In this document: positions 28,319 through 46,567 of the stretch, in pieces | Position numbering within the stretch: the first letter of the stretch is position 1 | How the letters are laid out: each line of letters starts with the position of its first letter | Position numbers and translations under genes: made by a program | NCBI GenBank assembly: GCA_903822435.1 | Contig: CAIJPE010000411.1 | Span: 1-64,000, forward strand | Length of the DNA stretch: 64,000 bases | Direction: 5' to 3' | Origin: an uncultured beta proteobacterium | GTDB lineage: Bacteria; Pseudomonadota; Gammaproteobacteria; Burkholderiales; Burkholderiaceae_C | Notes under the pieces: model-generated | Seen by the model: only the letters and a program-made list of their open reading frames with translations | What the model was told of the DNA's origin: nothing | The model's database searches: none

Positions 28319-28846
28319 CTACGAGACCTGGGGCAAGCGCCGCTCAGGCTGAACGCGGCGCCCGGCCCTCCACCGGGCGCTGGCCAGGACCCACAGCAGC
28401 CCTGCAGACAGGCTCAGCGCCGTGGCCGGCTCCGGCACGGTGGTGGTCTGCGGCACGAGGTAGCCGCTGACCGTGCCGGTCAGCGTGTAGGGCGCGAAGT
28501 CGTTCTGTGCCGAGAAGGACCCGCTGACGGTGTCGCTGGCCAGGCCGAGCGGTGCCGCGAAGCCCAGGTTGATGTCGCCCTGGACCGTGCCGTTGTTGCT
28601 GGCACTCGTCACCGTGTACGAGGTGGCCGTGAACTCGATGACCGACGGGTAGAGGCCGTCGATCCAAGCCCCCAGGTCGACGCTGACACTGTCGCTGTAG
28701 GTGAGGAAGGGCACCGAAACCGACCAGGACCCGGCAGCGGCCACGGGGTCCCAACTGACGGTGCCGGTGGCGTGGATGGACTGGGCCGGGTAGCCATTGA
28801 TCACGCCCGTGAACACGAGATGGCTGGCGTCGTAGACGATGTTCAT
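28319..28846 (-). CDS. PEP-CTERM protein lacking its own signal peptide
   Basis: 175 aa, beta-rich, Ser/Thr/Gly-rich, ending in a PEP-CTERM sorting signal: 'VPEPATALSLSAGLLWVL' followed by a basic tail 'ASARWRAGRR'. PEP-CTERM proteins are exported and processed by exosortase/EpsH systems linked to exopolysaccharide. The odd point is that it begins directly with 'MNIVYDASHLVFTGVIN', with no Sec signal. Its ATG overlaps the stop of the upstream short PEP-CTERM gene (ATGA), with AAGGA 7 nt ahead, so the two are co-translated. The export signal may have been lost or displaced. Confidence 0.75.
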   Translation of the reverse strand: MNIVYDASHLVFTGVINGYPAQSIHATGTVSWDPVAAAGSWSVSVPFLTYSDSVSVDLGAWIDGLYPSVIEFTATSYTVTSASNNGTVQGDINLGFAAPLGLASDTVSGSFSAQNDFAPYTLTGTVSGYLVPQTTTVPEPATALSLSAGLLWVLASARWRAGRRVQPERRLPQVS

Positions 28847-29127
28847 GGACGGTCCTTGACCTGGCGCAGGCCACGATTTACGAACAGGGCGGGGCTGCCA
28901 GGAAGGGCCAACGTGGCGCTGGCGGGTTCAGGCAGCCGCTGCAGCACGGGCCCACGGGTGCCATCGCCCGGGGGGATCTGCAGCAGGCCGGTGCCGGACA
29001 TGGGTGTGAAATAGGCGAAGTCGATCTCGCTCACCGCGCCGGCTGCCCCGGGCACAGAAAGCTGAACCGCTGCCCAAGCTCCCAGGGCCCAGGTCACACC
29101 GCGGCGGCACCGTTCGTCAGGTCGCAT
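28843..29127 (-). CDS. Short protein with signal peptide and PEP-CTERM-like tail
   Basis: 94 aa. Signal peptide 'RRGVTWALGAWAAVQLSVPGAAGA', a mere 30-residue middle 'VSEIDFAYFTPMSGTGLLQIP..', and a C-terminus 'LPEPASATLALPGSPALFVN' plus 'RGLRQ' that looks like a PEP-CTERM signal with two unusual prolines in the hydrophobic stretch. AGGAGA lies 7 nt before the ATG. It looks like an internally deleted PEP-CTERM protein, or the first half of an ancestral gene now followed by a second PEP-CTERM reading frame. Function unknown. Confidence 0.6.
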   Translation of the reverse strand: MRPDERCRRGVTWALGAWAAVQLSVPGAAGAVSEIDFAYFTPMSGTGLLQIPPGDGTRGPVLQRLPEPASATLALPGSPALFVNRGLRQVKDRP

Positions 29128-29427
29128 CGACCTTCTCCTGGTTCGGGGAGGGCCTCCGCGGACATCGCGGCTGGCAATGAAAGTGCATTGTGCACATTGC
29201 TGACAAAGAGAAAAGCCCGACGCAGGCCTGTCGCCCCCTTGCCCCGGCTCGCCGTTTGCCGCGACGCCGACGTGACCTGGGCTTCGCGGGCCACGCGCAA
29301 GGGCGCTTTCGTGCATGTGTCACGGACGATGGACCGACTCTGTAACAGGCCGTATCACATGGCATGCTGCCCGCCTACAGTCCTGCTCGACGCGATCGGA
29401 TGCCCTGCACCCGGCCGCCACCACCGA

Positions 29428-29516
29428 ATTCCGAGGGCAAACCCGTTGAAAAGCGGGGACGCAAAGCCACCGGCCTACAGCGCTCACAGCGCCAGGGCAG
29501 CGGGGTTGCCAACGAA
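29428..29516 (+). ncRNA. c-di-GMP-I (GEMM-I) riboswitch aptamer
   Basis: The leader of the S53 peptidase contains the GEMM-I core: GAGGGCAAACC at 29433, a 6-bp stem (29442-29447 with 29452-29457) closed by a GAAA tetraloop (29448-29451), then GGGACGCAAAGCC (29456-29468) with the tetraloop-receptor part CCGGCCTA, a variable stem (29480-29492) and the closing GCAGCGGGGTTGCC (29497-29510). These segments match the conserved core of Vibrio Vc2-type aptamers that bind cyclic di-GMP. It lies about 93 nt upstream of the start codon of the peptidase gene. Confidence 0.9.
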
Positions 29517-29540: not shown

Positions 29541-29557
29541 GCCACCCTGAAGGTGGC
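29541..29557 (+). terminator. Hairpin in riboswitch expression platform
   Basis: GCCACC (29541-29546) pairs with GGTGGC (29552-29557) around CTGAA, followed by CGTTGTTTCC. It sits between aptamer and start codon where a regulated intrinsic terminator would be. The T tract is weak, so a role in transcription attenuation is inferred. Confidence 0.45.
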
Positions 29558-29608
29558 CGTTGTTTCCACGTGGCCCTCGCCAAGCAACCGAGCACCCGAG
29601 GCGCCACG

Positions 29609-31741
29609 ATGTCATCCCGTTTTCTGTCCCTTTCCCAACGGTCGTCCGCTTCTCGAACGGGCCCCTGGCTGTGCGCCCTGGCCGTTGCAACCCTGACGGC
29701 TTGTGGCGGCGGAAGCGACGACACCACCACCCCATCGAGCGCGACCGAAGCCGCGACCGTTGGGCCGCTGGTCTTCGATCTGCCGGCCGCCGACGCCGCC
29801 CTGGCAGCTGAGACCGCCGGCATCCAGGCCCAGCCCACCTTTCATGCCGCTCCGGTGATCCTGGACGAACCCGACGACACCGATGTGGCCGACCCGGGGG
29901 CATCGGCACTGCGGGCGCCTCACGCGCAGCGCGTATCGGCGGCCCTGGCCGGGCTGTCCACGCAGCGCCTCAGCCTGGACCGCCTGCTCGCGGCGCAGCG
30001 CAGCCAGGCATTGGCGGCCCCCGCCGGCGAAGTCAACGCCGCCCTGGCAGCGACCTCGACGGTGCAGACCTACACGCCCGCACAGATCCGCGCCGCCTAC
30101 GCCATGCCGGCCCTGCCTGGCGCAGGCAGCGCGCCGACGCCGGCCCAGGCCGCAGCCCTGGGCGCGGGCCAGACCATCTACATCATCAATGCCCACCACA
30201 GCCCCAATGCGGCTGCCGAACTGGCCGCCTTCAACCTCAAGTTCGGCCTGCCTGCCTGTGCGGCCAAGGCCGTGGCGGCGAACAGCGTGCTGCCGCTGGC
30301 ATCCGCGTCGGCCACGGGCTGCGAATTCGCGCAGGTCTATGCCACGGCATCGGGCACGCTGACGACGGCCGTCCCCACCTACGATGCCGGATGGGCGACC
30401 GAGATCGCGCTGGACGTGCAATGGGTGCACGCCACCGCGCCGCTGGCGCGCGTGGTGCTGATCGAGGCGGTCGATGCCTCTCTGAACAGCCTGCTGGGCG
30501 CTGTCAAACTGGCCAATGCCATGGGCCCGGGCGTGGTCTCGATGAGCTTTGGTGCGACCGAGGGCAACTACACGGCTTCGGTCGACGCGGCTTTCACGGC
30601 GGCCCGGATGACCTACCTGGCCGCCACCGGCGATGCCGGCGTGGCGGTCAGTTGGCCTTCGGTGTCGACCAACGTGGTGGCCGTCGGCGGTACCACCCTG
30701 AGCTACGGCGGCGGCATGCGCAGCGAAACGGCCTGGGCCGGCACGGGCGGTGGCGTCAGCGCCTACACGGCCACACCCGCCTACCAGAATCCGGCGGTTC
30801 CCGGCTTCACCGGCTACGCCCGGCGGGCCGTGGCCGACGTGGCCTTCAATGCCGATCCGAACAGCGGGCAATACGTGGCCGTGATGCCGCCGGGCACCTC
30901 CGCGGCCAAGTGGATGAGCGTGGGCGGCACCAGCCTGGCCACCCCCCAATGGGCCGGCCTGATGGCGATGGCCAACGCCCAGCGCGGGTTGGCAGCCAGA
31001 TTGCCGCTGGGCGGGCCGCACGCGCTGCTGTACGGCCAGATCGGCGCGGTGCCCGGCAGCTACGCCAGCGCCTTCCTCGACGTGGCGCAGGGCCGACATG
31101 GCACCTGCAGCCTGTGCACGGCCAAGGCCGGCTACGACGAGCTCACGGGCCTGGGAACGCCCAACGTCGGCAGCCTGCTGAACCTGCTGAGCGGTAGTGC
31201 GCCATCGGCGGCGGCCCCTGTGCCACCCGTGGTGGCCGGCGCCACCATCAGCGGACAGCCGGGCGTGGCCCTCAGCGCCGCTGTCGGTGTCACCGCACCC
31301 AACACCGTGAGCTACACCCTGGCCGGTGCCCCGAGCGGCATGGCCATCAGCAGCGGCGGCGTCATCAGCTGGGCCAGCCCCGTGGCGGGCAGCTATGCCG
31401 TCACGGTCACGGCCCGGGACACCAAGACTGCTCTCAGCGGCCAGGGACTGCTGACCTTCAACATCGTCAAGTCCGGTCCGGTGGTGAGCTACAGCCCGAT
31501 GGCCGGGGTGGCAGGCAAGGCCCTGACGGGCAGCTTCAGCATCGCCGACGCCACGACCGGCGCGATGTCCATCGCGATCAGCGGGGTGCCTTCGGGCATG
31601 GCCTTCTCGGGCAGTGGTCTCACGTTCACGGCTAAATGGGCCAGCCCGGTAACGGGCACCTACACCCTCAAGGTGGCCGTGATGGACGCGGCGGGCCTGA
31701 GCACCACGGCCAACATTCCGGTGACGATCACGGCCAAGTAA
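29609..31741 (+). CDS. Secreted S53 (sedolisin) serine-carboxyl peptidase lipoprotein
   Basis: 710 aa. N-terminal lipobox LTAC (C32) after a hydrophobic signal. Pro-kumamolisin-like propeptide region, then the catalytic domain with E265 and D269 ('WATEIALDVQW'), oxyanion Asp D342 ('AATGDAGVAVSWP') and nucleophile S442 ('GGTSLATPQWAGL'): a complete sedolisin Glu-Asp-Asp-Ser set. After residue 540 come two putative Ig-like (He_PIG) repeats, each with 'SGMAISSGG' / 'SGMAFSGSG' and 'WASPV.G.Y..'. The leader holds a GEMM-I riboswitch, so expression should respond to cyclic di-GMP. Such peptidases degrade proteins at low pH or in biofilm matrix. Divergent from the PEP-CTERM pair. Confidence 0.92.
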   Translation: MSSRFLSLSQRSSASRTGPWLCALAVATLTACGGGSDDTTTPSSATEAATVGPLVFDLPAADAALAAETAGIQAQPTFHAAPVILDEPDDTDVADPGASALRAPHAQRVSAALAGLSTQRLSLDRLLAAQRSQALAAPAGEVNAALAATSTVQTYTPAQIRAAYAMPALPGAGSAPTPAQAAALGAGQTIYIINAHHSPNAAAELAAFNLKFGLPACAAKAVAANSVLPLASASATGCEFAQVYATASGTLTTAVPTYDAGWATEIALDVQWVHATAPLARVVLIEAVDASLNSLLGAVKLANAMGPGVVSMSFGATEGNYTASVDAAFTAARMTYLAATGDAGVAVSWPSVSTNVVAVGGTTLSYGGGMRSETAWAGTGGGVSAYTATPAYQNPAVPGFTGYARRAVADVAFNADPNSGQYVAVMPPGTSAAKWMSVGGTSLATPQWAGLMAMANAQRGLAARLPLGGPHALLYGQIGAVPGSYASAFLDVAQGRHGTCSLCTAKAGYDELTGLGTPNVGSLLNLLSGSAPSAAAPVPPVVAGATISGQPGVALSAAVGVTAPNTVSYTLAGAPSGMAISSGGVISWASPVAGSYAVTVTARDTKTALSGQGLLTFNIVKSGPVVSYSPMAGVAGKALTGSFSIADATTGAMSIAISGVPSGMAFSGSGLTFTAKWASPVTGTYTLKVAVMDAAGLSTTANIPVTITAK

Positions 31742-45586: not shown

Positions 45587-46567
45587 TCAGTCACGGGTGA
45601 TGCCCCGCTCCTTGACGACCCGGGCCCACAAGGCTCGCTGGGCGGCCAGGAACTGGGCCGGGTCCCCGGTGTAGAGGTCGCCACCGAGCGAGCGCACGCG
45701 GCCCAGCACCTCGGGGTCGGCCATGGCCGTGAGGATGGCGGCCACCAGCTTGTCGCGCACGGGCCCCGGCAGGCCGGCCGGGGCCAGCACGGGGTTCCAT
45801 TCCAGCACCTCGTGGCCCCTGACGCCGGCCTCGGCCATGGTCGGCACGTCGGGCAAGGCGCGGCAGCGCACGGCCGCGGTCACGCCCAGGGGCCGTAGCC
45901 GGCCGGCCTGGATCTGGCCCAGGGACGAGGCCACGTTGGCGAAGAACAGCGGCACCTGGCCGCCCATCACGTCGTTCATGGCCGGCCCACCGCCCTTGTA
46001 AGGGACGTGCGTCAACTCGACCTTGGCCAGTTGCTCGAACAGCGCGCCGGCCAGGTGCTGCGCCGAGCCGTTGCCCGACGAAGCGTAGGCCAGTGTCTTG
46101 GGCTTGGCACGCGCCATGCGGATCACGTCTGCCACGGTGCGTGCTTCGAAGCTGGGCGTGCACACCAGCACGTTGGGATACAGAGCCAGCACGGCCAGCG
46201 GCAGGAAGGCGGTGCGCGTGTCGTAAGGCAGCTTGTCGAAGAGCGCCGGGTTGACGGCGAACGACGAAGCGTCCAGCAGCAGCGTCGCGCCGTCCGGTGC
46301 TGCGCGTGCCACGAGGCTGGCGGCGATGGTGCCGCTGGCGCCCGGCCTGTTTTCCACCACCACGGTCTGCCCCAGCGCCTGGGCCATGCGAGGCGCGATC
46401 ATGCGGGCCATCACGTCGGCCCCGCCGCCGGCCGGGTACGACACCACCAGGTTGATCGGCCTGCCCGAGGCGATCTCGGCGCGGGCCCAGGGCGCAGCCC
46501 AAGCGGAGGCCGTTGCGGCCGTGGTGGCTGCAGCGAAGCGCCTTCGGGTCCAGGCGGATGGGTTCAT
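45587..46567 (-). CDS. Tripartite tricarboxylate transporter receptor (Bug/TctC family)
   Basis: 326 aa. Tat-like signal 'TRRRFAAATTAATASAWAAPWARAE'; then Bug hallmarks 'PINLVVSYPAGGGADVMARMIAPRMAQALGQTVVVENRPGASG' and 'AYASSGNGSAQHLAGALFEQLAKVELTHVPYKGGGPAM'. AGGAG lies 8 nt before ATG 46567. Periplasmic receptor for carboxylates. It may serve the tctBA permease at 39-41 kb, which lacks an adjacent receptor; the operon partner downstream is the amidohydrolase. Confidence 0.9.
   Translation of the reverse strand: MNPSAWTRRRFAAATTAATASAWAAPWARAEIASGRPINLVVSYPAGGGADVMARMIAPRMAQALGQTVVVENRPGASGTIAASLVARAAPDGATLLLDASSFAVNPALFDKLPYDTRTAFLPLAVLALYPNVLVCTPSFEARTVADVIRMARAKPKTLAYASSGNGSAQHLAGALFEQLAKVELTHVPYKGGGPAMNDVMGGQVPLFFANVASSLGQIQAGRLRPLGVTAAVRCRALPDVPTMAEAGVRGHEVLEWNPVLAPAGLPGPVRDKLVAAILTAMADPEVLGRVRSLGGDLYTGDPAQFLAAQRALWARVVKERGITRD

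Follow-up and report, generated by a model that had tools for sequence, protein, structure and literature searches.

A c-di-GMP-I riboswitch upstream of an S53 peptidase gene in Burkholderiales, with a proposed OFF switch for translation

In an uncultured beta proteobacterium of the order Burkholderiales, a gene encoding an exported S53-family peptidase has a full-length c-di-GMP-I aptamer in its leader, and we favor, with somewhat better than even confidence, the reading that this riboswitch controls translation of the protease as an OFF switch. The window referred to throughout is the whole 64,000-nucleotide stretch of contig CAIJPE010000411.1 that was analyzed. In the mechanism that we propose, a leader element GUGGCCCUCGCC would pair, in the absence of ligand, with the aptamer 5′ arm GAGGGC, so that ribosomes could reach the Shine-Dalgarno/start region and the protease would be made. 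With c-di-GMP bound, the arm would be locked in the binding site and the element set free to pair with the Shine-Dalgarno/start region, upon which translation would stop. Ligand should thus close the start, since element:arm pairing excludes both the ligand site and pairing of the element with the start. Low c-di-GMP levels, as on leaving a surface or biofilm, would then result in release of the protease at the cell surface. If true, secreted protease output would be tied directly to the biofilm and motility second messenger with no protein regulator in between, as for PPEP-1 in Clostridioides difficile but with serine-carboxyl and subtilisin proteases and in many genera.

The aptamer and the peptidase gene

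Searching the whole window against Rfam 15 (cmscan, gathering thresholds) returned a single match, RF01051 (c-di-GMP-I, or GEMM-I), at 29426–29513 on the plus strand, covering the complete model (positions 1–87) with 81 bits (gathering score 35) and an E value of 2.3e-14. The first-pass annotation had read a GEMM-I riboswitch in the leader of the peptidase gene and proposed an Infernal search with RF01051 as a check; this full-length, above-threshold match bears the assignment out, with the boundaries moved from 29428–29516 to 29426–29513. The 6.07 Mb draft genome (426 contigs, 98.5% complete) yielded no other RF01051 match. The window riboswitch is an ordinary member of the known family, with its full length, its GAAA-capped stem and contacts of the G20/A47/C92 type: G29436 is the base equal to Vc2 G20, and G29436, A29463 and C29509/29510 stand, with the Rfam alignment as a guide, at what we take to be the positions of the Vc2 contacts G20, A47 and C92. 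In the passages available from PMC4744006, G20, A47 and C92 are given as the ligand contacts of Vc2, with mutation of G20 lowering binding 30,000-fold. Unlike the RF01051 cases in the literature passages covered, the window leader contains an element not described there and its target is an S53 lipoprotein peptidase.

The window organism probably makes c-di-GMP, as its genome contains 49 matches to GGDEF (a number of these split), and c-di-GMP is the ligand that the aptamer would be expected to bind. GEMM-I superfamily members with A at position 20 bind cGAMP, and one may ask whether another cyclic dinucleotide such as 3′,3′-cGAMP is sensed here, but G occupies this position in the window and in 27 of the 27 S53-linked aptamers among the best 150 sites listed in the family survey described below, and the best Rfam model within the clan for the window aptamer is c-di-GMP-I; we therefore judge this alternative very unlikely.

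The gene downstream (29609–31741, plus strand), the start of which was taken as the ATG at 29609, 95 nt past the aptamer, encodes a 710-residue protein with a lipoprotein signal and an Ig-like C-terminal region. Judged by its sequence, this lipoprotein belongs to the S53 kumamolisin/sedolisin family and has the E-D-D-S catalytic residues. No S53 model of Pfam or NCBIfam fires on the window protein; a single-sequence search found tripeptidyl-peptidase 1 (E 1.3e-11), and a profile of 31 homologues found solved kumamolisin (E 1.5e-44) and sedolisin (E 1.1e-26). E265, D269, D342 and S442 do not vary across the 31 homologue rows and fit the roles of what we take to be the S53 catalytic tetrad, E, D, D (oxyanion) and S. 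The sedolisin named as target at the outset is thus confirmed by the profile matches together with these invariant residues. The protein resembles kumamolisin, sedolisin and tripeptidyl-peptidase 1 across the catalytic domain and differs from them in its lipoprotein N terminus, its Ig-like C-terminal region and its lack of a Pfam or NCBIfam S53 match. It had been described as an exported lipoprotein with Ig-like repeats: a lipobox, LTAC, can be read by eye at the N terminus, while the repeats come down to one C-terminal He_PIG stretch (Pfam). Likewise, of the PEP-CTERM genes assigned to the other strand one stands, a divergent neighbor at 28319–28846 (minus strand) outside the switch, with a sorting signal just above threshold (TIGR02595, 18.1 bits vs cut-off 16), and the adjacent short ORF at 28843–29127 has no family match. 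The window genome contains a second S53 homologue (L212, contig C402:1503–2825, 48% identity) without an aptamer, the match to which reads through one TAG.

There is a precedent for proteases as targets of this riboswitch. According to the passages available from PMC11477304 and PMC6447587, PPEP-1 (CD2830/Zmp1) of C. difficile is a secreted metalloprotease under a c-di-GMP-I riboswitch and is made at low c-di-GMP, and those of PMC6366702 describe the functional class I c-di-GMP riboswitches of this species as OFF switches that act by termination. As far as these sources go, the two systems share a c-di-GMP-I riboswitch before a secreted protease and differ in that PPEP-1 is an adhesin-trimming metalloprotease, with termination as in the class I switches of its species, whereas the window has an S53 serine-carboxyl peptidase and a predicted translational platform. 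Searches of an open-licence literature library, judged by their listings, showed no S53 or S8 targets of c-di-GMP-I riboswitches.

Conservation of the aptamer with the S53 gene

Among 399 genomes of the family, RF01051 occurs in 116 and a homologue of the window protein (E 1e-20 or better) in 41. A custom covariance model, built from 23 aptamers of which several come from the very S53 loci searched, places an aptamer in the leader of 32 of 43 S53 loci; among the 43, L007 and L084 have almost no upstream DNA. In a maximum-likelihood tree of 61 S53 proteins, a single Burkholderiales clade of 37 (support 97/96) has the aptamer in 32 members, at identities to the window protein mostly near 50–60%; the aptamer is found in 0 of the 24 rows outside this clade, the second S53 copy of the window genome included. 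Three further aptamer-bearing loci (L042, L046 and L055) were too short for the tree and left out. An order-wide sample gave the aptamer in 4 of 6 other genomes with a homologue (L206–L209, from three other families), and it is present in three Burkholderiales MAGs (L002, L005 and L006) and absent from two Oxalobacteraceae (L003 and L004). No RF01051 match was obtained at 19 more distant homologues, mostly of Actinomycetota (L008–L026). These comparisons show that aptamer and S53 gene go together and that their association is conserved.

The aptamer could instead be a relic or chance neighbor that does not regulate the S53 gene. Five clade members are without it, of which L084 keeps only 48 nt upstream and the other four (L003, L004, L076 and L078) live without one, and the copy in L070 is degenerate (45 bits with the custom model; RF01051 listed nothing in that genome). 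Against this stand its retention in the other 32 clade members at such protein divergence and the co-occurrence of the leader element with the aptamer, and we consider a relic or chance neighbor highly improbable.

At E 1e-20, no S53 homologue is detected in the three congeners of the window organism (G195, G269 and G390). Each has a GEMM-I site before an S8 subtilase, and its leader repeats the element of the window leader described below, as an exact copy in two and with two mismatches in the third (L031). Contrary to expectation, window and congeners show no synteny and have no flanking genes in common: around the riboswitch, the riboswitch alone aligns, and a further alignment (L240 vs window 45840–46434, 65%) lies some 16 kb from it in the window. 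The congener loci L027, L028 and L031 have in common, by eye, a GTCAC....TTGTTAC motif roughly 40–55 nt upstream of the aptamer.

A leader element with two complementarities

A recurrent 12-base element, GTGGCCCTCGCC, lies at 29570–29581 (plus strand) between aptamer and gene. It was picked by eye from the leaders before counting. Exact copies stand in 11 of the 35 S53 leaders and in 2 of the 43 S8 leaders, whereas 700 shuffles gave no exact copy and 2 with one mismatch. In nine aptamer-less S53 homologues, four of them in the clade, it does not occur within 2 mismatches, the best match having 3–6. Within the element, GCCCTCG (29573–29579) is complementary to the aptamer 5′ arm CGAGGGC (29432–29438, plus strand), the core GCCCTC facing GAGGGC with ligand-site bases included. 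Because the arm includes binding-site bases, element:arm pairing and an occupied ligand site would be mutually exclusive.

Separate counts of element:arm pairs over 34 loci include 10 elements placed by hand after the complementarity had been seen, and their shuffle figures lean towards the model; for this reason the fair test is one independent of where the element is placed, namely the search for an exact complement of each locus's own arm hexamer within the first 120 nt of its leader. Such a complement is found in 24 of 28 loci with a GAGGGC arm as against 11 of 129 others. It occurs in 24 of 35 S53 leaders vs a mean of 14.5 and a maximum of 21 in 2000 shuffles, a comparison uncorrected for relatedness, and shows no excess over shuffles in S8 (5/43) or remaining (7/79) leaders. 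Compensated variants exist, AAGGGC with GCCCTT in 3 loci of one genus and CAGGGC with GCCCTG in L037. Among the 11 S53 loci (of 35) without an exact complement, L002, L102 and L209 keep the element opposite a mismatched arm and in L100 and L207 the element differs at a single base, while L005, L043, L049, L054, L129 and L143 are, in our reading, other leader types (L005 and L129 have an AAGGGC arm without GCCCTT). A duplex-energy swap test over 149 leaders was weak, with 91 of 2000 permutations as good for the S53 5′ arm.

The element is also complementary to the start region (UGGCC/GGCCAUG). In the window, a predicted hairpin at 29569–29608 (plus strand), CGTGGCCCTCG/CGAGG-C-GCCACG, covers the Shine-Dalgarno-like GAGG (29598–29601) and ends at the start codon, and the segment from element to ATG folds at −19.2 kcal/mol (z −3.06 vs 300 mononucleotide shuffles); 17 of 34 such segments have z below −1. 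Counted on 21 of the 34 leaders, with the three S8 leaders of the congeners and ten others set aside, the element-start helix has 92.5% of its cells paired vs 24–48% when slid by up to three columns. It shows almost no covariation (67 of 500 shuffles reach the observed value), and RNAalifold on the aligned leaders used for it gave no consensus structure.

Folding predictions for the proposed switch are mixed. When each of the two states is enforced, 19 of 24 leaders have a more accessible start codon with element:arm pairing than with the aptamer fold (0.51 vs 0.23 on average), and the Shine-Dalgarno hardly changes across the same 24 (0.25 vs 0.19). In the window's own 215-nt leader the enforced element:arm (−74.1) and aptamer (−76.1) folds lie 2 kcal/mol apart, with −83.3 for the unconstrained fold. 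Here the prediction leaves the Shine-Dalgarno closed whichever state is enforced (unpaired 0.00 and 0.07), and the start codon goes the wrong way, at 0.39 in the element:arm state vs 0.61 in the ligand-bound proxy; the switch is not clear from this leader, the whole-leader minimum-energy folding of which is uninformative (z −1.09).

Control could instead be exerted by transcription termination, or as an ON switch, and not by sequestration of the start site. The window has a terminator-like spacer hairpin (GCCACC-CTGAA-GGTGGC, 29541–29557, plus strand) followed by a T-rich tail, and a scan for terminator-like sites on both strands of 601 bases gave 4 vs 0.4 expected, this hairpin accounting for two of them in overlapping form. 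Of 34 related leaders, 8 have at least five T in a row between element and start; L043, whose S53 leader is of a different type, has by eye a strong GCCAGTCGATCGACTGGC hairpin followed by TTTTTT, unlike the window; and termination is the mode reported for the functional class I riboswitches of C. difficile. However, the tail of the window hairpin is weak (CGTTGTTTCC), and the hairpin is probably not the switching element, as it is predicted in both enforced folds. Between aptamer and element, a common terminator is absent, since five consecutive T are found there in none of the 34 leaders. Termination or an ON switch we regard as unlikely while giving it appreciable weight, and closure of the start site by the freed element remains the reading we prefer. 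The first-pass annotation named no direction of control; it is the anatomy of the leader that points to translational OFF control.

A single platform for all protease leaders was considered and rejected, as S8 leaders mostly use other elements. The same arm-capture principle is seen with other letters in L149, L159 and L168, where CCAAAGGCA or GCAAAGGCA arms have a complement further down (TGCCTTTGG over 9 nt in L149 as in L159, TGCCTTTG over 8 nt in L168), still within the leader; the L149 leader precedes a ShlB-type secretion gene. Another platform type is suggested by the leaders of L049, L104, L121 and L125, in which GGCAACCC is complementary to the aptamer 3′ strand over 8–10 nt.

Targets of c-di-GMP-I sites across the family

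We surveyed the genes downstream of the best 150 c-di-GMP-I sites listed from the 399 family genomes, in which more sites exist. Length and codon-position GC served to pick the likeliest frame downstream of each site (L152 gave none), and targets were classed by similarity to the window protein, by clustering and by Pfam on 50 proteins. S53 peptidases follow 27 sites, S8 subtilases 43 (27 called by Pfam, 16 by phmmer to Pfam-tested ones), FliE-like proteins 13 (two tested) and other proteins 67. The last group, a minority of which was assigned an identity, includes GGDEF/EAL, chemoreceptor, PilZ, PapD-like chaperone, two-partner secretion and GH9 proteins and one clear M12 metalloprotease (L185), L144 being below cut-off. 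S53 or S8 proteases thus lie downstream of 70 of the 150 best listed sites, which as best-scoring sites with several per genus are not independent. By hand count the protease-linked listed sites fall in 32 genera (15 with S53, 22 with S8, five with both), and the riboswitch is present in 58; the window genome, by comparison, contains 10 S8 and two S53 matches. With a concrete candidate expression platform and these 70 sites as candidate regulon, the purpose of GEMM-I in this group becomes testable.

At the position of Vc2 G20, C is found in 11 of the 150 listed aptamers, from five genera by hand count (L050, L090, L091, L098, L112, L114, L118, L119, L120, L148 and L184). Each of the 11 stands before an S8 subtilase and has in its leader a GCCTC..GAGGC hairpin near the start, which is also found in 4 of the other 32 S8 leaders. 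A pattern search for this type, allowing one mismatch, hit 1 of 300 genomes of the order, that one in the window's family. Going by these sequences, the C20 aptamers are possibly a ligand-specificity variant. More broadly, we put forward tentatively, and with slightly less than even confidence, that Burkholderiales c-di-GMP-I riboswitches above all control extracellular subtilisin-fold proteases (S53 and S8), that this link arose repeatedly and with several expression platforms, tying protease release to a fall in c-di-GMP in many genera, and that one protease-linked group, with C at a key contact, may read another signal.

Three listed aptamers (L086, L153 and L173) have A at the Vc2-G20 position, as do GEMM-I members of the cGAMP type. 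For the protease-linked L129 and L140, the top-scoring model is the variant c-di-GMP-I-GGC, with 62.2 and 61.7 bits against a cut-off of 59. In the 13 loci of the FliE-like group (for example L128 and L177), the c-di-GMP-I site lies 388–658 nt before the flagellar gene.
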